DNA from: a virus
Reading direction: 5' to 3' (one strand)
Length of the DNA: 21,260 bases
Virus record (IMG/VR): IMGVR_UViG_3300032093_000995
Location: 1-21,260 of that record
In this document: in pieces, positions 3,680-21,260 of the stretch
How the letters are laid out: every line of letters begins with the position of its first letter
Position numbering within the stretch: the stretch's first letter is position 1
Notes under the pieces: generated by a model
What the model saw: the letters and a program-made list of their open reading frames with translations, nothing else
The model's database searches: none
Told to the model about the DNA's origin: nothing
Made by a program: the position numbers and the translations under genes

Positions 3680-5497
3680 TTGAGTTTAGACAACGTAAAG
3701 CTGCATCTTGTAAAAGATGTGCAGACAGCTCAAGACTTTTTAACCTGGCTTGGTGAACGTCGCCCGTACAACGCTATTGCAATCGATACTGAAACCGGCG
3801 AGCTTCCAGGACGTCCACATAAAGATGCCTTATCACCTTGGCATGGAAAACTCCGCCTTGTACAAGTTGGAGATGGTGAGCAAGGTTGGTCTATTCCTTG
3901 GGATGAATGGTCCGGTGTTTTTTATGAAGGCATGGACAGATTCGACGGCCAAATTGTTTGTCACAACGTAGCCTTTGAAGCTAGATGGTTTGAAATTCAA
4001 TCAAAATGGGGAATCCCATGGCACCGTACCCACGACACCATGATTATGGCTCAGATTATTGATCCACTAGGATCCGGTGCGCTTAAAAAACTTACACAGC
4101 AATATGTAGACAGAAAGGCAGCTGGCTTACAGGCCCACCTCGATCAGTCTTTAGTTGCAAATGGTTGGACCTGGGGAACCGTACCTACAAACTTTGAACC
4201 TTACTGGGCCTATGGTGCTTTAGATACTGTGCTTACCATGCGTTTGTTTGAGCTGTTCTGGGAAAAGTGTGGTCCAGGTGGAATTTACAGCATTCCTTAT
4301 GAGCTAGAAATGGCTGCTAGAAAAGTTGTAACCCGTATGGAAATCAATGGCGCACGTGTAGATCTTGACTACTCACAAAAAAAGTTTGATGAACTAAACG
4401 AGTATGGCCAGTCTGTAAGAGACTGGGCTAAAGAAACCTACAACGGTTTGATGATTACAAGCAACATACAGCTAGTTCGTCAGTTTGAGTCAATGGGTTT
4501 CGAGATTACCGAAACAACAAATAGCGGACAAAAATCCGCTTCAAAAGAGCAGCTAATGCTAATTGTTCGTGACGGCGACCCGGGACAGCGTGCTTTGGCG
4601 GAAGCTGTATTGCAACAGCGTAAAGCCGACAAACTAGCTAACACATATTTTAAAAACTTCTTAGAAGGAAATATCAATGGCATCGTGCATCCATCTGTAA
4701 AAACTCTTGGAGCTAGAACTGGTCGTATGTCTATTACAGATCCGGCACTACAAACCCTTCCATCTGGCGATGCAACCGTACGTCGTGCATTTATTCCTAA
4801 AGATGAAGATCATGTAATTATTTCTTCTGACCTCGACCAAGTTGAATTCCGCCTAACTGCAAACTTTAGTGAAGACCAACAACTAATTGATCTTTTCAAT
4901 GAAGCCGATCGTGTTGGCGGAGACGTATTTACATCAATCATGCAACAGGTGTACCAGGACAACACTCTACAAAAATCTGATCCAAGACGTAAACTTATTA
5001 AGGGTGTAGTCTATGGAAAACTTTATGGAGCTGGTGTATCCAAGATGGCACTTACTGCTGGAGTACCAGACCATCAAATGAAAGAAGTAGTCGACGCGTT
5101 TGACAGAAGCTACCCTGGAGTAAAAATGATGCAGATGCAAATTGAAGACTTAGGTATGCGCAGGCTTAGAGATGAAGGTACAGGTTACGTAAAGACCCGA
5201 ACCGGGCGCCGCCTACCATGTGACGACGAGCGCGTTTACTCACTGACTAACTACTTAATTCAAGCAAGTGCTGCAGAGATCTTTAAGCAAAATCTGGTAA
5301 AACTAGATCAAGCAGATTTGACCGAGTATCTAATTGTTCCAGTACATGACGAAATTGTTTTGCAAGCCCCCCGGTCTGAAGCAACAGAAATTATGGAGAC
5401 AGTTAGAGAGTGCATGACCACCCGTGATGGCTGGCAAGTCCCCCTTACAGCTGGAGTAGACGGACCGTTTAATAACTGGGGAGAAAAGTATGAGTAG
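3680..5497 (+). CDS. polA: DNA polymerase I-type (family A) with 3'-5' exonuclease
   Basis: A 605-residue replicative polymerase. The exonuclease domain shows ExoI (D36-T-E38), ExoII (HNVAFE around N96) and ExoIII (Y178-x3-D182). The polymerase domain shows motif A ('SSDLDQVEFR', D384), motif B (R437-x3-K441-x3-Y445-G-x2-Y449-G) and motif C ('PVHDEIV', D557). A 5'-3' exonuclease domain is absent, as in many phage enzymes. Y445 aligns with Phe762 of E. coli Pol I and Phe667 of Taq; Tyr there is the T7-like state. The start is TTG, supported by AAAGGA and by the leader shared with the helicase gene. The resolvase gene begins eight bases before its end, so the two are coupled. Confidence 0.96.
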   Translation: MSLDNVKLHLVKDVQTAQDFLTWLGERRPYNAIAIDTETGELPGRPHKDALSPWHGKLRLVQVGDGEQGWSIPWDEWSGVFYEGMDRFDGQIVCHNVAFEARWFEIQSKWGIPWHRTHDTMIMAQIIDPLGSGALKKLTQQYVDRKAAGLQAHLDQSLVANGWTWGTVPTNFEPYWAYGALDTVLTMRLFELFWEKCGPGGIYSIPYELEMAARKVVTRMEINGARVDLDYSQKKFDELNEYGQSVRDWAKETYNGLMITSNIQLVRQFESMGFEITETTNSGQKSASKEQLMLIVRDGDPGQRALAEAVLQQRKADKLANTYFKNFLEGNINGIVHPSVKTLGARTGRMSITDPALQTLPSGDATVRRAFIPKDEDHVIISSDLDQVEFRLTANFSEDQQLIDLFNEADRVGGDVFTSIMQQVYQDNTLQKSDPRRKLIKGVVYGKLYGAGVSKMALTAGVPDHQMKEVVDAFDRSYPGVKMMQMQIEDLGMRRLRDEGTGYVKTRTGRRLPCDDERVYSLTNYLIQASAAEIFKQNLVKLDQADLTEYLIVPVHDEIVLQAPRSEATEIMETVRECMTTRDGWQVPLTAGVDGPFNNWGEKYE

Positions 5498-11832: not shown

Positions 11833-12327
11833 ATGCAAACATTTGTACCAATTACTAGCAGCTTTGAAGACATTGCCAAAGTGCTTGACAACAAGCGCCT
11901 TAACAAACAAGCCTTAGAAGGCTGGCAGATTCTTATGAATCTACTCGAGCTTGATCCAGAAGGTAATCATCGCATCTCCAAAGGCTGGTCTAACCACCCA
12001 GCTGTGCGCATGTGGCGTGGCCACGAAATGGCTTTGCACTACTACATTCAGTGTATGGTAGATGAGTGGAAGCGTCGTGGCTACAAGTCAACTATCGGCG
12101 ACAAAGCTAAAGCAACCGTCTTACGAGCATTAGAAATTGGGGTAATTGATGAAGCAAACATGTTCAATCCTCAGTGGATGCGCTACCAACCACAATACAA
12201 AGAGATCGCAGCTAGCCATCGACTTGCTTTATTGAGCAAAGATTACGAGTGGTATTCACAGTTTGGTTGGCCAGAAGATCCTGGCTATAGACCAGAAACT
12301 TATGAATATATCTGGCCAGTAGCCTAA
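11833..12327 (+). CDS. Pyrimidine-dimer DNA glycosylase-like (MSMEG_6728-type) protein
   Basis: About 164 residues. The opening 'MQTFVPITSSFEDIAKVLDN', then 'KRLNKQALEGWQILMNLLE' and 'GWSNHPAVRMWRGHEMALHYY' match the MSMEG_6728-like branch of the T4 endonuclease V/pyrimidine-dimer glycosylase superfamily. Candidate functional residues are R22, K25, Q26 and E29, with H and R of the NHPAVRMWRG segment. T4 endonuclease V cuts at UV-induced dimers through its N-terminal amino group. Whether this branch does the same is not established to my knowledge. A phage in sunlit water would gain from such repair. I chose the ATG at 11833 (AGAAAG upstream) over an earlier ATG inside the preceding gene. Confidence 0.8.
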   Translation: MQTFVPITSSFEDIAKVLDNKRLNKQALEGWQILMNLLELDPEGNHRISKGWSNHPAVRMWRGHEMALHYYIQCMVDEWKRRGYKSTIGDKAKATVLRALEIGVIDEANMFNPQWMRYQPQYKEIAASHRLALLSKDYEWYSQFGWPEDPGYRPETYEYIWPVA

Positions 12328-13220: not shown

Positions 13221-14409
13221 CAGCTAAAACACTAATATGTTCACGTGGTTCATACTCTCCACCCAGAACCATTGTCAGTAGCCCAGGCTTTGATTCAAGA
13301 CCAGCACGATCTCTAAACCATTCTGATCCAGGATCGGTAGTAGGACACTGCACCCAAAGTCTATGACCAACATCCATACACTTAAAGTTGTGGAAGTGTC
13401 CAGAGATCCATACATCTGCAAGCCCTAAAGCAGTTTGTCCAGCAGCTTGCCCAGACAGATACTTCATAACGTCCCTACCAGCTTGGTGGCCGTGAAATAG
13501 TCCAAGCATTGTGCCATTAATATCCACAGTTAAAGTTTGATGACCAGACGATGGGAATCTAAACTCTACGTGCTGTAGAGCCGGATTCTCTGCACAAGCA
13601 TCTTGAACTGCTGAGGCAATCTCTACGTTCCAGCCGTCTGCCGGATCCGCAGCAACTTGACGAGTTACCTCATCATGGTTTCCATTAATTACTGGAACAA
13701 TAACGCGTTCTGCTAGAGGAGCCAAAGTTTTAATTTGAGTCATCAATAAACGACGTGCAACACGCACCTGTTCGGTTAGACCTAGGTCAGATGCTGCTTG
13801 ACCTTGCAAACGCCCATTCTGACTTGTTAGACCTTCAACATGGTCTCCAGGAAGTGCAAGAACAACTGTCCCTAGATTGAGACCCATTTTTCTTAAGCTA
13901 AGCAGCCTATCAACTGAATACTCAGTTAGTTGTAAAATTCTATCAATTGACTGCTGAGTCCCTTGCCCATTTGCTTTCTTACCAATCTGCTGATCGCTAG
14001 GAGAAACAAGATACGCACCATTTCCAGTGCCGGCTTTTAGCCCACGCTCTGGACGCCACTTCTTAATTTCATCAATTAATGCTTCAGCATCTAGGTGGTC
14101 AGCAACAACAAGACCAGAAGGAACAACATTTACTCGAACAGACTCCAACCATTCACCGCTGTAAGTCTGCCATCTAGATCTACGAAGAGATGTGACAGTC
14201 CAAGAGTTCGGGTCTAGATCAAATTCTTTAAGTACATCAGCTGTATCTGGAATCTCTCCAGCCGGACGCGGCTTAGATACAACAAAACCACCTTTAGAAT
14301 CATCAAGATCTAAACGTGGTCGCCAATCTTCTGGTGTGTTCAAAGCTTTTACATCAGATCCTGTTTGACCAGGCTCTGCTAATTTTTTTAAGTTTTCTGA
14401 AAGTGCCAT
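13210..14409 (-). CDS. Calcineurin-like metallophosphoesterase
   Basis: A 399-residue protein with a unique first ~130 residues and a phosphoesterase domain after that. Motifs are 'SPSDQQIGK' (D139, where the usual D-x-H is D-x-Q), 'LPGDHVEG' (D189), 'INGNHDE' (N244-H245-D246), 'LFHGH' (H307) and 'ISGHFHNF' (H338, H340). Two metals are expected in the active site. Actinophages often carry such enzymes; substrates could be DNA ends, cyclic nucleotides or phosphoesters on proteins, and sequence does not tell which. GGGAG precedes the ATG by four bases. Its start shares one base with the stop of the HTH-like gene. Confidence 0.9.
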   Translation of the reverse strand: MALSENLKKLAEPGQTGSDVKALNTPEDWRPRLDLDDSKGGFVVSKPRPAGEIPDTADVLKEFDLDPNSWTVTSLRRSRWQTYSGEWLESVRVNVVPSGLVVADHLDAEALIDEIKKWRPERGLKAGTGNGAYLVSPSDQQIGKKANGQGTQQSIDRILQLTEYSVDRLLSLRKMGLNLGTVVLALPGDHVEGLTSQNGRLQGQAASDLGLTEQVRVARRLLMTQIKTLAPLAERVIVPVINGNHDEVTRQVAADPADGWNVEIASAVQDACAENPALQHVEFRFPSSGHQTLTVDINGTMLGLFHGHQAGRDVMKYLSGQAAGQTALGLADVWISGHFHNFKCMDVGHRLWVQCPTTDPGSEWFRDRAGLESKPGLLTMVLGGEYEPREHISVLAVKP

Positions 14410-14678
14410 TATTCTCCCGATGTTCGGCTACAACTACATGAATTACGTCGATGTCTATCAACTGCGCTATCTGATAGATCAAAACCTTCTTCTCTCAAAG
14501 CATTAGCCAACACAACGTTTGTTAAACGGCTTGGGTTGCCTTCAGGAACACTAAGTAAAGATAAGAAAGTTTCTCTGTCTTCTTTAGTTAGAGAGTCGCT
14601 ATCAAGAATAATCATAAGTTTACACTTACGGGATTGAGGGCTATTAGTAGCTGAATTTAGTCGATCTGACAATGACAC
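14409..14678 (-). CDS. Small HTH-like protein
   Basis: An 89-residue protein starting at GTG, preceded by a clear AAGGGA seven bases away. The C-terminal half, 'RLTNVVLANALREEGFDLSD' followed by 'SAVDRHRR', has the shape of a helix-turn-helix of the kind found in small actinophage proteins, ending in a Cys-Ser-Cys pair (C81, C83). Cys19 in the N-terminal half might join these in binding metal. It is coupled to the metallophosphoesterase by a TAATG overlap. It could be a DNA-binding partner of that enzyme or a regulator; neither is demonstrated. Confidence 0.68.
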   Translation of the reverse strand: MSLSDRLNSATNSPQSRKCKLMIILDSDSLTKEDRETFLSLLSVPEGNPSRLTNVVLANALREEGFDLSDSAVDRHRRNSCSCSRTSGE

Positions 14679-15274: not shown

Positions 15275-17884
15275 ATGAACGACAGAACTCATTCCGAAAA
15301 ATTAGCAGCCGGTGCCCAGTGGTATTCATCAAACGGCTGGAGACTTTTACCCTGTTACGGTATTAATTCAGGCGGAAGATGTACATGTGGCGGTTCCCAC
15401 GCCGAGCCAAAAGATGCTGGAAAGCATCCAGCCATTGGTGAGTGGAATATTCAAGCATCAACAGATCCAAGAACGATTGAAAAATGGTGGCCTGGTAATT
15501 CTGAAAACAACATCGGTGTTTATTGTCAGGGATCGGGTTTTATCGTTCTAGATATTGATCCCAGATCTGGTGGAGTTGCATCATTTGAGACTTTAGAAGA
15601 GCAGTTAGATTATTGCTTACCGCCAACCGTTGAAGCTTTTACCGGAGTGTATACATACAACGGCAATACTGCTAGAGGTCGTCATCTTTATTACAAAGTG
15701 TCTGAAGGTGAACAGTTCCAAGGAAATCTAAAAGCTTTAGAACTTCCAGGAATCGACATCAAGCACAACGGCTACGTAATGGTTGCCCCATCACGCCATG
15801 CTTCCGGCGTTGAGTACGAGTGGAAGCCAGGCCACGCTCCATGGGAAATGGAAATGGCAGAAGCTCCTGAAGAACTTTTACAAGTTATTCGTAAAAAATC
15901 ACGTCGCGGTGTAAGTTCACACGGTGCCGGCGACTGGGATTGGATGAATGATCTTGAATACAAAGGCGAACGTGTTGATATTCAAAAGATGCTTGAAAAT
16001 GGAATTGATGAAGGTTCTCGTGCTGTAGACATCTATAAATTGACTTGTGCAATTTCAAATAAGTACGGAGTAGATACTCCTGAAAAACGTTTGATGATTG
16101 AAACAACGATGATGCGGTTTAATCACGAAAAAGTACGTCCACCTCTAGAACTTGAAGGTGCTGGAGGATTGCTTATGCACGTTCGTAGAGCAATGGACTT
16201 TGTTGCTGAAAATCCAATTACTGAAAAAATTTGGCCAGGACTTACTGAGTGGGCAAGTAGACCGGTTGACGGAACTGGATCAGCATCAACAAGCTCCACG
16301 CCGAGTTCATCAACTCCACCACAAGACCCAAGAATGCAAAGTGGTATTGGTGCTGCTATTTCTGCAGCTGCTCATTCAGGCGTTTCAGTATCTCAAGCAT
16401 TTAGTGCAAACAACGTCGATGTACCAAACAACCCTGATGCCTTATCGGAGAACGAGGGTGGAGATCCTGAGCGTAGATCTTTATCTGATATCGGTAACGG
16501 ACGTCGACTAGTGGATTCTTTTGGTAACGTAATGCGCTATACCCCTGGTCTTGGATGGTTTATCTGGGATGGCCAGTACTGGAAGCCAGATGCTGAAGAT
16601 TTGGCAACACAGGAACTTGCAAAACACTTACCTACAATCGTTGCAGCTGAGACCGCTAAATATACAGACGATGATAAAAAGCGTGAAGTAGTCAAGTGGG
16701 CATATCAAGCAAGAGCAAACTCTAGAATGCGTGCAGCAATTGAAAGCGCTAAATCAGACCCTCGTATTGTCAATGAAGTTGAAGAGTGGGATAACCACAA
16801 TCATCTTTTCGGCGTTCTTAATGGAGTAATTAATCTAAAAACAGGTGAACTTATTAAAGGACAGCCAGATCTGCATATTACAAAACGAGCACCTGTTGCG
16901 TACACTCCTGGAATGCGTAACGTCCGTTGGGAAGAATTTATTAATCACGCCACGGGTGGAGATAAAGAACTACAAGAGTGGATTCAACGAGCTGTTGGCT
17001 ATACTCTTACCGGTCTTAGCAACCAAGATGTTTTATTCCTTGTTTACGGACCATCCGGTTCTGGTAAGAACACGTTTGTTGAAACTATTGTAAGAGCCAT
17101 GGGCACAGATCAATATGCTGGTACATTACCATCAGACCAGCTGGCTATTGGCAATGGTTCTCAGAACAACAGCTCAAACCAATACTATTTAGCCGAACTC
17201 CGTGGTAAGAGAATGATCTGGGTAGACGAGCTTCCAGAATCAGAACGTCTAAACGAAAACCAGGTAAAGAGCATGACTGGGTCATCTACAATCCAAGGAC
17301 GTTCTCCTGGTGAAAAGCCATTTACATTCCGTGCCCAAGGTAAGCTGTGGATCACAACTAACCACAGACCTATCATTAACGATGATGCTATGTGGAGACG
17401 TCTACGTCCAATTCCATGGGTACATAAACCAGAAATGGCAGACCCAGATCTAAAAGCTTATTTAGAAGATCCAGAAGGCGGTCTACCGGCTGTACTTGCT
17501 TGGGCAGTCGAAGGAGCAATTAAGTATCTTGGTTCAAGTGCTCGTGATCCACTTGGATGGTGTGCTGCAGTATCAGAAGCCGCTGAGATGTATCGTAAGA
17601 ACGAAGATCGCATTGGCATGTTCTTAGAAGAAGAGACAGTTGAAGATGCGGACCGTGAAACTCAACTAGCAGGAGTTTATGCAGTCTACAGAATGTGGAG
17701 TGAAGAACGCGGAGAACGTCCACTTAGCAATATTGGATTTACTCGTAAGTTAAACGACCGTGGTCTAGAAATTGTCGGGCAAGGAAAAGCAGCAGTTATT
17801 AAGGGTAGGTTTATTCCGCCAAGAGCTGTTCCAAATACCGACGTCGACTGGGGTAGAGCGACCAGCATTGCAAGGAATTTCTAG
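15275..17884 (+). CDS. Primase-polymerase / D5-type SF3 helicase fusion
   Basis: An 869-residue replication protein. The N-terminal prim-pol domain (about 10-210) has the Cys pair 'RCTCGG', the metal motif 'VLDIDPR' (D93, D95), 'GRHLYY' (H137) and 'GIDIKHNGYVMVAPS'. A Ser/Thr/Pro-rich linker spans about 332-352. A D5_N-like region begins near 410. The helicase has Walker A 'GPSGSGKNT' (592-600), Walker B 'MIWVDELPE' (D651, E652), sensor 'WITTNHRP' (694-699) and 'WRRLRPIPW'. It would unwind the origin and prime synthesis for the Pol I-type enzyme. AAGGA lies five bases before the ATG. A bidirectional terminator follows the gene. Confidence 0.95.
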   Translation: MNDRTHSEKLAAGAQWYSSNGWRLLPCYGINSGGRCTCGGSHAEPKDAGKHPAIGEWNIQASTDPRTIEKWWPGNSENNIGVYCQGSGFIVLDIDPRSGGVASFETLEEQLDYCLPPTVEAFTGVYTYNGNTARGRHLYYKVSEGEQFQGNLKALELPGIDIKHNGYVMVAPSRHASGVEYEWKPGHAPWEMEMAEAPEELLQVIRKKSRRGVSSHGAGDWDWMNDLEYKGERVDIQKMLENGIDEGSRAVDIYKLTCAISNKYGVDTPEKRLMIETTMMRFNHEKVRPPLELEGAGGLLMHVRRAMDFVAENPITEKIWPGLTEWASRPVDGTGSASTSSTPSSSTPPQDPRMQSGIGAAISAAAHSGVSVSQAFSANNVDVPNNPDALSENEGGDPERRSLSDIGNGRRLVDSFGNVMRYTPGLGWFIWDGQYWKPDAEDLATQELAKHLPTIVAAETAKYTDDDKKREVVKWAYQARANSRMRAAIESAKSDPRIVNEVEEWDNHNHLFGVLNGVINLKTGELIKGQPDLHITKRAPVAYTPGMRNVRWEEFINHATGGDKELQEWIQRAVGYTLTGLSNQDVLFLVYGPSGSGKNTFVETIVRAMGTDQYAGTLPSDQLAIGNGSQNNSSNQYYLAELRGKRMIWVDELPESERLNENQVKSMTGSSTIQGRSPGEKPFTFRAQGKLWITTNHRPIINDDAMWRRLRPIPWVHKPEMADPDLKAYLEDPEGGLPAVLAWAVEGAIKYLGSSARDPLGWCAAVSEAAEMYRKNEDRIGMFLEEETVEDADRETQLAGVYAVYRMWSEERGERPLSNIGFTRKLNDRGLEIVGQGKAAVIKGRFIPPRAVPNTDVDWGRATSIARNF

Positions 17885-17931
17885 TTTAGATACTAGAATA
17901 AAAACGTGATCTCGGGGAGAGACACAAAAAG

Positions 17932-17961
17932 AGCCGGGTCTTTTAGATCCGGCTTCTTTTT
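17932..17961. terminator. Bidirectional intrinsic terminator
   Basis: AGCCGGGTC pairs with GATCCGGCT (one G-U pair) around a TTTTA loop, followed by TCTTTTT on the plus strand. On the minus strand the same stem is followed by CTTTTTGTG. It ends both the primase-helicase gene and the converging recombinase gene. The 75-base gap 17885-17959 holds little else. Confidence 0.88.
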
Positions 17962-18610
17962 ATCTATCCACGATATTTTTGACCGTGGTGGCGTACCACT
18001 TCCCACCATTTTGGGTGGGGATATTGTCCTTATTGAGACCTAAAGCTATCTCCCTGTAAGACTTGCCAAGCTTTCTTTCCGCTTTGATTCGATCTTTAAT
18101 CTCGTCTGAAGTTTTATTTTTAGGCCCCATATCGACGCCCCACTTGATTCCACGGGCTCGTCTATCCTTGTGAACGTCCTTTTGACGTTCTGCAATAATT
18201 CCACGTTCCATCTCTGCTAGGGCGGACATAATTGTGACCACAAACCGGCCTTGATAGCTAGCTGTGTCCAGATTTAGATCTAGCATGACTAGACGCCATT
18301 TGTTGGCATTTGCCCTGTCTATAATGCTCAAAAAGTCCTTCGTAGAGCGGGCTAAACGGTCGATACGCGTCACAAAAAGGGCTGAAGCATCCCCAGTGTC
18401 TAATCGCTTTAAAGCGGCTGTAAGAGCCGGACGGCCCGTAATTGACTTACCTGAGCGACCCTCTTCTCGAATTAGCTCATAATCAGTAAATCCAGCCACT
18501 TCAGCAGCATTTATAAGCTGTCTTTCCTGGACGTCGAGAGAAACACCGTCATTTACTTGAAGCTGGGTCGATACACGGGCGTATAAAAGAGCTTTACCTG
18601 GATCTGTCAA
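17960..18610 (-). CDS. Small serine recombinase (resolvase/invertase type)
   Basis: A 216-residue recombinase. The catalytic Ser14 lies in 'LLYARVSTQLQ' with R12. Further active-site features are 'EEGRSGKSITGRP' and 'TRIDRLARSTKDF' (D84, R85, R88), then 'MSALAEMERGIIAERQKD' as the dimer helix. The C-terminal part 'GKSYREIALGLNKDNIPTQN' and 'KWYATTVKNIV' is a compact DNA-binding HTH. At this length it resembles resolvases and invertases rather than large phage integrases. It could act in integration, DNA inversion or multimer resolution. The start is TTG, two bases after the stop of the HExxH gene, so the two are co-expressed. No att or inverted crossover site was recognised. Confidence 0.92.
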   Translation of the reverse strand: MTDPGKALLYARVSTQLQVNDGVSLDVQERQLINAAEVAGFTDYELIREEGRSGKSITGRPALTAALKRLDTGDASALFVTRIDRLARSTKDFLSIIDRANANKWRLVMLDLNLDTASYQGRFVVTIMSALAEMERGIIAERQKDVHKDRRARGIKWGVDMGPKNKTSDEIKDRIKAERKLGKSYREIALGLNKDNIPTQNGGKWYATTVKNIVDR

Positions 18611-18612
18611 AT

Positions 18613-18957
18613 CTATTCACCAGTCTCTAAGAGCCATTTTAGAACCGTAGGATTTTCCCTCATGACCATAAGCATTGCATTTTCATAGATTCCTATAAAA
18701 TGATGCTCCCAGGTCTCATAGTCATCAGATTTTTTAGGTCTGGTTGGCCCCTCCAACGACATTCTACAAGCATGGAGGATCTCATGCAGTAAAGTAACCT
18801 GTTTTTTGCTTTTAGGAGCATTTTTATCAATTACTATAAGATTTTGATTCTCTAAAGTATATCCATAGCTCCCTTCATTCAACATTCCATCTTCTAACGA
18901 AGGTTTTTCAACGATCTTGAATATGTGAAGGCCAACCTTCACTTGCTTTGGCATCAT
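18613..18957 (-). CDS. HExxH putative zinc metallopeptidase
   Basis: A 114-residue protein with 'LLHEILHACR' (H58-E59-x2-H62), the zinc-peptidase signature, and a downstream helix 'EHHFIGIYENAMLMVMRENP' that could supply the third ligand (E84 or E92). The pattern 'tLLHEiLHAC...VMRENP' recurs in short phage proteins of unknown substrate. ImmA/IrrE-type proteases share HExxH and cleave phage repressors, but overall similarity is too weak to call this one. It shares a transcript with the serine recombinase and lies beside strong dyads, which would suit control of recombination. Start is ATG 18957, with the near-duplicate ATG next to it. Confidence 0.78.
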   Translation of the reverse strand: MMPKQVKVGLHIFKIVEKPSLEDGMLNEGSYGYTLENQNLIVIDKNAPKSKKQVTLLHEILHACRMSLEGPTRPKKSDDYETWEHHFIGIYENAMLMVMRENPTVLKWLLETGE

Positions 18958-18985
18958 CTCTATTTAACCTAACCACTTGTATAAT

Positions 18986-18994
18986 AATGTATCA
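18986..18994 (-). promoter_or_regulatory. Extended -10 promoter for the HExxH/recombinase operon
   Basis: TGA followed by TACATT on the minus strand fits TGn-TAnnnT and would give a leader of about 20 bases before the ATG at 18957. No convincing -35 is present. Confidence 0.5.
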
Positions 18995-19026
18995 GTTTTG
19001 TACACCATTTTTTGCCGATTTCTCCC

Positions 19027-19052
19027 GTATAAACTTAACTTTAAGTTTATAC
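19027..19052. promoter_or_regulatory. Perfect 12-bp inverted repeat, likely operator
   Basis: GTATAAACTTAA and its exact complement TTAAGTTTATAC are separated by only CT, giving a 26-base near-palindrome between the divergent genes at 18957 and 19126. The A/T-rich arms and two-base centre suit a dimeric repressor site better than a terminator. No repressor gene is recognised beside it. Confidence 0.7.
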
Positions 19053-19083
19053 AACAACTTTACCACATAGGGAATCTGGCTAA

Positions 19084-19101
19084 GTGAGATAATTAGATCA
19101 C
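19084..19101 (+). promoter_or_regulatory. Extended -10 promoter within a dyad
   Basis: TGA-GATAAT (19085-19093) resembles an extended -10 for the gene at 19126. It lies inside an imperfect dyad GTGA-N2-TAATTA-N2-TCAC, in which 14 of 18 positions are symmetric. A dyad of related sequence lies at 15201-15217. Confidence 0.5.
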
Positions 19102-19125
19102 AAGATCGACGACCGTAAGGCCAGC

Positions 19126-19284
19126 GTGGAATATAGCAAATACGAAGATCCATACCAATGCAAGGTATGTAAGCAAGTGTTTGTCGTCCGAAAATTAGCC
19201 GAGTGTTGTGAACTAAAACACCAAGGAATAGTGTTTGTGCGGGATCCTAGACAAGAACCACGACCAAAAAAGCCTAAAAATTAA
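19126..19284 (+). CDS. Small C-x2-C zinc-finger protein, newly called
   Basis: A 52-residue ORF in an otherwise gene-free stretch. It starts at GTG with TAAGG five bases upstream and encodes 'MEYSKYEDPYQCKVCKQVFV' and 'VRKLAECCELKHQG', ending in a Pro/Lys/Arg-rich tail. Cys12, Cys15, Cys27 or Cys28 and His32 could hold one zinc. The spacing and the aromatic/hydrophobic pattern ('Y-x-C-x2-C-x3-F') resemble a C2H2 or C2HC finger. An in-frame TAA upstream limits the start to this GTG. It ends four bases into the oppositely oriented gene. With the flanking dyads it is a candidate DNA-binding regulator, which is inference. Confidence 0.68.
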   Translation: MEYSKYEDPYQCKVCKQVFVVRKLAECCELKHQGIVFVRDPRQEPRPKKPKN

Positions 19285-19510: not shown

Positions 19511-19753
19511 TTACCATTTGCCTAGAGGACATTTAGCACCCTCAAGCTTAGTTTTAAATTGCATAAAGCAACCACATTTTTTACATTGATCAGTCAATTG
19601 TATCAACTCCGGGCAAGCCTTACAAATATCCATTCTCCCCTGGGCATGGCTTTCATCAATCTTACGAGCTTTAGGATTTAAGAGATCTAACGGTGTCACA
19701 CCATTTTTTTCTTTGTATTGCTCCCATCGGGACTTTTTAGGCTCAGTGTTCAC
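19511..19753 (-). CDS. Zinc-ribbon-like protein (CKxCGCFM...CPLGKW type)
   Basis: An 80-residue protein with six cysteines: C44, C47, C57, C60, C62 and C75, in 'DICKACPEL', 'DQCKKCGCFMQFKTKL' and 'AKCPLGKW'. This ending is a pattern I associate with small proteins of many environmental phages (DUF6171-like). The function is unknown; one or two zinc ions are likely. The start is GTG, 11 bases inside the end of the preceding gene, with GGAG ten bases away. It lies in a run of leftward genes headed by a fibre gene, so a virion-assembly role is possible, but such proteins also occur outside structural modules. Confidence 0.75.
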   Translation of the reverse strand: MNTEPKKSRWEQYKEKNGVTPLDLLNPKARKIDESHAQGRMDICKACPELIQLTDQCKKCGCFMQFKTKLEGAKCPLGKW

Positions 19754-20351: not shown

Positions 20352-21260
20352 TATGTTAATCCGTTTCCGCTAATAATCCATGAAGTGGATGTGATCTTTA
20401 CTGCAGTAGCCATACCAAATGGAGCAAGAGTACGAGATCCTGTAGTTCCAGTACCTGCTAAATACATGGTATCAGAAGTAATAGCAATAGTCATAGTTGC
20501 ACCCGAGCCAGCAATAAACGTAAGTGTTGTGCCGATAGGCAGTGCAAGGTTTGTGTTTGAGTTGATTGTCACTGTGCGAGTAGCAGAAGCGTAAATATGC
20601 TTACCTGCATCTGCGGCTACAATAGTGTAAGAGCCAGTTGTTGTTGAATTTTGTGGAAGACCCATAAAACCTGCACCAGCTGCGGCGGTTGAGGTTGTAC
20701 CATCTAGTGGGTTTGGGTCTGTTCCATCCGCATTTACGATGGTTCGTGCTGAACTAGAAGTTCCACGATATTTTAGAGCACCAGATTCAACAAATAGAAC
20801 ACCGCCACCGCTAGGGTTGGAAGACGGAACAGTTCCAGCATTAGCTATACCAATAACACCGGATCCTCCACCGGTTCCTGCAGTTCCAGCAACTCTAAGG
20901 TTTCCCATAGTAGTTAGAGTTGAAGATGTTAAGAAAGATCCGTCTGCAGTTATATAAGCTCTAACGGTACCATCTGATATTTGCCATTGTTGAATATCGG
21001 TAACCTGGCTTGCTGCAGCGCGAACAATTAAGCCTACCGTTGCGGCAGATCGAGAAACAGACGAGGCTTGGGCATAAACTCTAACTGTTCCAGCAACAGT
21101 TTGAGATCCAGTAGTGGTGTTTGCATAAGTAAAGCTTGTAGTTGTTGGGGTAGAAGCAACAGAAAAAGTACCGTTATATCCAGTTGGAGTAATTCCAGCA
21201 ACTGTTACAATGTCACCAACAGCCAAGTTGTGGTTGTTTGTGGTAGTTATGGTTGCTGTA
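20351..21260 (-). CDS. Tail or head fibre protein, partial
   Basis: About 303 codons of a leftward gene whose start is beyond the right edge; the frame stays open to the last base. The first visible part, 'LAVGDIVTVAGITPTGYNGT', is a beta-repeat common in phage fibres and adhesins. The middle is Gly/Ser/Thr-rich ('VAGTAGTGGGSGVIGIANAG', 'NPSGGGVLFVESGALKYRGT'). The C-terminal domain includes 'AADAGKHIYASATRTVTINS', 'FIAGSGATMTIAITSDT' and ends 'KITSTSWIISGNGLT', an ending I know from fibre proteins of many phages. It should help contact the host surface. A TTG at 21226 is in frame, but the sequence before it continues the repeat, so it is not the start. Confidence 0.82.
   Translation of the reverse strand, partial: TATITTTNNHNLAVGDIVTVAGITPTGYNGTFSVASTPTTTSFTYANTTTGSQTVAGTVRVYAQASSVSRSAATVGLIVRAAASQVTDIQQWQISDGTVRAYITADGSFLTSSTLTTMGNLRVAGTAGTGGGSGVIGIANAGTVPSSNPSGGGVLFVESGALKYRGTSSSARTIVNADGTDPNPLDGTTSTAAAGAGFMGLPQNSTTTGSYTIVAADAGKHIYASATRTVTINSNTNLALPIGTTLTFIAGSGATMTIAITSDTMYLAGTGTTGSRTLAPFGMATAVKITSTSWIISGNGLT

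Follow-up and report, generated by a model that had tools for sequence, protein, structure and literature searches.

In the locus described here, a leftward gene pair for an HExxH protein and a serine recombinase, separated by two bases, diverges from a zinc-finger gene, with a 168-bp intergenic stretch between them (18958-19125). The locus lies in a 21,260-bp IMG/VR virus record, which is referred to as the window. A sequence-only reading of this DNA had described the gene pair, the divergent zinc-finger gene and a perfect 12-bp inverted repeat in the intergenic stretch, all of which were confirmed (Table 1), and the repeat proved to be conserved in relatives. Which protein reads this palindrome, and does it serve recombination, the control of transcription, or both?

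Table 1. Features of the locus, with positions in the window.
Feature	Position	Strand	Remarks
Terminator-like hairpin	17931..17955	.	Between the convergent ends of the recombinase and PrimPol genes
Small serine recombinase	17960..18610	-	216 aa, TTG start; resolvase-type catalytic domain and short 'Recombinase' helix-turn-helix
HExxH protein	18613..18957	-	114 aa, minigluzincin/M78-like metallopeptidase; variable occupant of the first position in the recombinase operon
Conserved leftward promoter block TGTACAAAACTGATACATTATTATA	18980..19004	-	Conservation in relatives
Leftward extended -10 TGATACATT	18994-18986 (TACATT 18991-18986)	-	35 bp from the palindrome end
Perfect 12-2-12 palindrome GTATAAACTTAA-CT-TTAAGTTTATAC	19027..19052	.	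Predicted recombinase binding site and predicted operator of the leftward promoter
Zinc-finger-gene extended -10 TGAGATAAT	19085..19093	+	Core conserved, surrounding palindrome 19084-19101 not
Zinc-finger gene	19126..19284	+	52 aa, GTG start, single C2HC finger CxxC-x12-C-x3-H

Genome context and the genes flanking the palindrome

The window encodes a WhiB-like protein, DNA polymerase I, a helicase, a PrimPol-type primase and an Mre11-like exonuclease, of which the polymerase and helicase were recognised from their sequence and from counterparts annotated in Actinomycetia phage DSL-LC01. This 129-kb lake phage is the closest annotated relative by recombinase, and further relatives are viral contigs of 95-137 kb among the matches listed. 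Given this gene content and these relatives, the window is part of a large freshwater actinophage genome. The recombinase family is large, with at least 599 rows in the viral-contig scan, and we found no literature on these recombinases in Nanopelagicales phages. An Rfam search of the window gave no match, and PADLOC reported no defence family.

One gene order, found in a single genome context, is widely kept: tail genes, small ORFs, zinc finger, a variable slot, recombinase, PrimPol and Mre11. HExxH occupies the slot in the window lineage and in contigs L075 and L086 only; elsewhere the genes found there include a dNMP-kinase-like and a DUF4406-like one, or the slot is empty. The idea that the three genes are linked in relatives was therefore borne out for the zinc finger and the recombinase in this one context, but not for HExxH, which is not fixed and lies between the other two only in the closest relatives.

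Two minor features of the surrounding sequence were recorded. Contig L005 (IMGVR_UViG_3300008120_005292), elsewhere identical to the window, is without 198 bp inside the PrimPol gene (window 15978-16175) and without 107 bp across two small ORFs (window 19525-19631), and it differs from contig L004 by 91 bp in the tail region; these are either micro-deletions or assembly errors. Window positions 21039-21256, which encode the N-terminal part of a tail-like protein, recur with 73% DNA identity in an adjacent second tail gene of the same orientation (L004 2030-2247).

The HExxH protein gave weak matches to DUF6782 and M78, the latter scoring 19.0 bits against Pfam Peptidase M78, below the curated cut-off of 22 bits. 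H58, E59, H62 and E84 are invariant in an alignment of 23 members, a gluzincin-like HExxH motif with a downstream Glu, and E84 is the presumed third ligand. Its structure was predicted with high confidence (pLDDT 92.6). The protein resembles the minigluzincins (selecase, abylysin) and IrrE/ImmA (M78) in its length of about 110 aa, its HExxH helix and its top fold matches (the minigluzincins and IrrE/PprI); these matches are weak, however, with E-values of 0.04 or worse, and the protein has no attached helix-turn-helix. Its distance from the recombinase gene varies, the two being adjacent (in both orders; G001, G011, G022 and G028), 1-4 kb apart or, in nine relatives, 9-33 kb apart. Genomes G013-G016 carry HExxH without the recombinase, and DSL-LC01 and G026 carry the recombinase without HExxH. 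An HExxH-recombinase operon as a conserved pair was discarded on account of this variable distance and separate occurrence. The earlier comparison of the pair with ImmA-type control fell on the same grounds, and on the finding that no repressor lies beside HExxH, which sets it apart from the protease-repressor linkage of the ImmA/ImmR switch.

The zinc-finger gene is real. Its C12, C15, C28 and H32 are invariant in 30 aligned sequences, its top fold matches, although individually weak, are C2H2 fingers, so that it is of C2H2 type, and it is conserved next to recombinase and PrimPol in one genome context. No such gene was found in G026 and G028, both of which have strong dyads, and binding of the dyad by the zinc finger, proposed as a repressor role for this protein, was rejected for this reason. 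A conserved GACCGTAAGGCC stretch in the zinc-finger leader, just ahead of the GTG start (window 19094-19125 and nearest relatives), may serve in ribosome binding or in control.

A second dyad had been noted beside the perfect repeat. It does exist (19084-19101, seven of nine pairs in the window), but only 2-6 of nine pairs form at the same place in relatives, which keep just the TGnGATAAT core. Dyad conservation thus holds for the main palindrome and not for the second, which, judged from this pattern, is a palindrome formed by chance over a genuine extended -10.

Pairing of the recombinase with the palindrome

The recombinase matches Pfam Resolvase (E 1.6e-31) and the PHROG 'DNA invertase'. 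Its DNA-binding end is short, with just positions 16-49 of the 102 of Pfam Recombinase present, and its length places it among the small serine recombinases (about 200 aa), not the large serine integrases. The catalytic residues R12, S14, D84, R85, R88 and R136 are conserved at 98% or more in 120 recombinase proteins, and the catalytic motifs are intact in the window protein. In contigs L066 and L068 a second, partial recombinase (5156-5410, 49% identity to residues 132-216) sits 0.6 kb ahead of the complete one.

The palindrome consists of two 12-bp inverted half-sites around a 2-bp core, which fits the geometry of serine recombinase sites; a 12/12 palindrome of 12-2-12 geometry occurred in 0.04% of control 160-bp windows. 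The window holds one such site. When whole relatives were scanned with a matrix, the strong sites in a genome numbered one or two, mostly one, where about none were expected, and the site was present in 15 of 18 recombinase-bearing records compared with none of four recombinase-free ones. All 33 palindrome matches lay within 3.5 kb upstream of a recombinase, with none elsewhere and none in shuffles (115 distinct loci, 901 kb). With a broader matrix, which covers both arm types, 74 of 120 distinct loci had a palindrome in the 3.5 kb preceding the recombinase, against one match elsewhere (954 kb) and four in shuffles; since the training sites of this matrix had themselves been taken from recombinase upstreams, the match count is partly circular, and it is the internal control, the single match elsewhere, that carries weight. 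In a motif-free test, 12-2-12 palindromes of 11/12 or better were found in 7% of recombinase upstreams and in 0.6% of control windows. Diverged recombinase clades have other palindrome arms, e.g., GTACATCCTTAA-NN-TTAAGGATGTAC, 50-98 bp upstream, and in DSL-LC01, whose recombinase is a distant one, a diverged site lies immediately upstream of the recombinase gene.

When the gene families of 20 records were compared, the recombinase was the sole genuine family present in all 10 large palindrome-bearing genomes; the one further ORF found in all of them is antisense to it, and the zinc finger was absent from two of the ten. The pairing is kept both beside PrimPol and about 40-55 kb away from it (G026, G028), and the association is therefore not mere collinearity. 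At 46 of the 120 recombinase loci no site was detectable nearby, many of these having several kb of upstream sequence, and the 127-kb genome G010 has no palindrome site anywhere. In G002 and G003 the sole site stands at HExxH, far from the recombinase. From these comparisons, it is the pairing of recombinase and palindrome that is conserved, not a three-gene unit.

Promoter phasing and covariation of the arms

Two extended -10 promoters had been proposed in the intergenic stretch. A consensus promoter scan reported neither, and both are called on, and supported by, their conservation in relatives. Downstream of the palindrome, relatives carry an extended -10 of the form TTGTACAtt or TGATACATT, a pattern found at 77% of palindrome sites and in 1.5% of control 60-mers. 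In 27 non-redundant spacers, the distance from the palindrome end to TAC was 10-12, 21-24 or 32-36 bp, with one of 39 bp and none at 13-20 or 25-31 bp (p 5e-5 against uniform spacing). With this helical-phase spacing, a bound protein would sit on roughly one helix face relative to RNA polymerase. The site and promoter block also precede HExxH alone in G002, G003 and G004, and in contig L087 a palindrome site lies 157 bp before HExxH. G001 has another site with promoter block before a galactosyl-transferase-like gene. A search for accessory sites found just a conserved promoter block beside the palindrome, and no clear sites II/III.

The arms of the palindrome vary together with the DNA-binding domain of the recombinase. 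Arm distances correlated with distances in this domain (r 0.59) more than with those in the catalytic domain (0.31), and in partial Mantel tests the values were 0.52 (p 0.0005) and 0.008, respectively. The covariation holds against catalytic columns that are equally or more variable. Within the predicted recognition helix (WYATTVKNI in the window), residue 208 agreed with arm base 4 at 62 of 74 loci (T-T 26, S-C 32, A-A 4), and the 12 loci off this pattern mostly have asymmetric sites. On the catalytic-domain tree residue 208 needs ten changes. A phylogenetically strict test yielded two independent pairs on well-supported branches and six on all branches, which is not significant alone; because only two pairs lie on well-supported branches, this covariation is consistent with a recognition code rather than significant.

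The recombinase family occurs in abundant freshwater actinophages, and its natural variation offers a testable recognition code, relating one helix residue to one half-site base of a serine recombinase. Such a code would be useful for the long-standing problem of reprogramming serine recombinases. The findings also raise the question of phased transcriptional regulation by a recombinase at genes besides its own. The palindrome appears to be read by the enzyme whose gene it precedes, which points to a possible double role of a single enzyme, in DNA rearrangement and in gene switching.

Candidate functions and relation to known systems

Recombinase binding at the palindrome is a well-supported prediction, for which conservation, geometry, placement, covariation, phasing and intact catalytic motifs were all computed. 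We consider it reasonably probable that the palindrome is the recombinase's own binding site and probably its crossover site, and that it also serves as the operator for a small regulon, with HExxH among its genes. From the sequence data we infer that a dimer binds, that strands are exchanged at the core and that the leftward operon is regulated, and also the biological purpose. A recombinase dimer would bind the two half-sites and cut at the core. Against this reading, near-identical contigs showed no inversion at the palindrome and gave no recombination product, the cores differ in genomes with two sites, and part of the recombinase loci have no detectable site nearby. As the palindrome lies whole helical turns upstream of the extended -10, the bound recombinase would be placed to control its own transcription. 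The HExxH metallopeptidase would be a changeable passenger, first in the recombinase operon and under the same control, and in some cousins it would stand elsewhere with its own copy of site and promoter. The purpose would most likely be to resolve or circularise phage genomes by way of the single site per genome. The regulation could be of either sign: resolvases usually repress at res, and the whole-turn spacing, which extends to three turns upstream of the promoter, fits activation or contact with RNA polymerase. It is a tentative, somewhat doubtful proposal that the intact recombinase is a transcription regulator of a small phage regulon at phased 26-bp sites, acting on its own operon and on unlinked ones (HExxH, galactosyl-transferase-like), its site having been re-specified repeatedly by T/S/A at residue 208.

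The same observations could be read in other ways. A site used for recombination only (resolution, circularisation or phage-phage exchange), its proximity to a promoter being incidental as in the res sites of transposons, would agree with the single site in most records, the intact catalytic motifs and the 12-2-12 geometry; we regard it as rather unlikely, since the tight helical phasing suggests a transcriptional role as well and since copies of site and promoter precede genes other than the recombinase. Such phasing is characteristic of proteins that regulate transcription, and one of another kind would fit it too. The palindrome might accordingly be an operator through which some other phage or host regulator, and not the recombinase, controls the recombinase, HExxH and glycosyltransferase operons, and the promoter block and palindrome do precede HExxH alone, the galactosyl-transferase-like gene, the dNMP kinase and the DUF4406-like gene. 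Three results make this unlikely: the palindrome's presence across all genomes is matched by no other gene family, the arms covary specifically with the recombinase DNA-binding domain, and bacterial genomes scanned with a degenerate pattern yielded only 31 scattered matches in unrelated phyla, as expected by chance, which led us to reject a host operator.

Inversion of a tail-fibre or promoter segment between two inverted palindrome copies is suggested by the family resemblance to DNA invertases, by the nearby tail genes and by G004, which has two sites of opposite promoter orientation 15 kb apart. We consider it very improbable, as the window and most genomes have one site and repeat searches in G001, G002 and G004 found no tight cassette flanked by inverted repeats. 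In addition, the 2-bp cores differ in two-site genomes. Mismatched cores block religation in the serine recombinase family, and recombination between the two sites is therefore not expected; the differing cores would instead favour an operator role for the extra site copies. The inversion switch of the sequence-only reading is not supported, given these cores and a search that found no nearby invertible segment. Least probable of all is a switch in which HExxH, as an ImmA-like protease, removes the zinc finger as a repressor from the dyads. HExxH does weakly resemble the IrrE/M78 fold and the zinc finger matches DNA-binding C2H2 fingers, but HExxH has no fixed linkage to zinc finger or recombinase, the palindrome occurs without the zinc-finger gene, and the second dyad is not conserved. 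The complete relative DSL-LC01 has no annotated lysogeny genes, which also speaks against the lysogeny switch once suggested.

The preferred reading, a recombinase acting at its own site, has its closest parallels in the Tn3/gamma-delta and Sin resolvases with res, which likewise combine a serine recombinase of about 200 aa with inverted half-sites around a 2-bp core, the site lying in the promoter region of the recombinase's own gene. Tn3-type resolvases autoregulate. The system described here differs in being phage-borne, in having no clear sites II/III, in having its site also before other genes, and in a DNA-binding end that resembles the 'Recombinase' domain found in large serine integrases instead of the helix-turn-helix of Tn3 and Hin. 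The recombinase and palindrome thus work like a resolvase with res and appear to control more than the recombinase's own gene. In res, cleavage takes place at the centre of site I, with site II as a helper (PMC2428073). The Hin, Gin and PinQ invertases belong to the same catalytic family as the recombinase and act at sites that, for this type of enzyme, are 26 bp of 12-2-12 form; here, neither a second core-matched site nor an invertible segment was found. In phage P1, Cre-lox comprises one recombinase and usually one site per phage genome. The likeness lies in these numbers; Cre is a tyrosine recombinase, and circularisation would be the predicted counterpart here.

A Cre-lox-like neighbourhood of a pac site, near the terminase small subunit, was considered and rejected: the DSL-LC01 gene in question, although near the recombinase, belongs to a function-unknown family, phrog_3979, and the corresponding 'terminase' gene of G026 and G028 lies far from their recombinase. 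This gene (DSL-LC01 127932-128171) is annotated 'terminase small subunit', and phrog_3979 is the best PHROG both for it and for its window counterpart (14409-14678). The idea that a tail segment is inverted was likewise discarded, as the repeats found in three genomes are long-range or unrelated, being repeated intergenic elements. Inverted intergenic repeats of the TTTGTTTAGGATTTATTCCC type occur in the early region of G001 (11890-12000 and 25380-25490), and similar ones in G002 (14884 and 24768); the copies, 10-14 kb apart, are probably repeated control elements.
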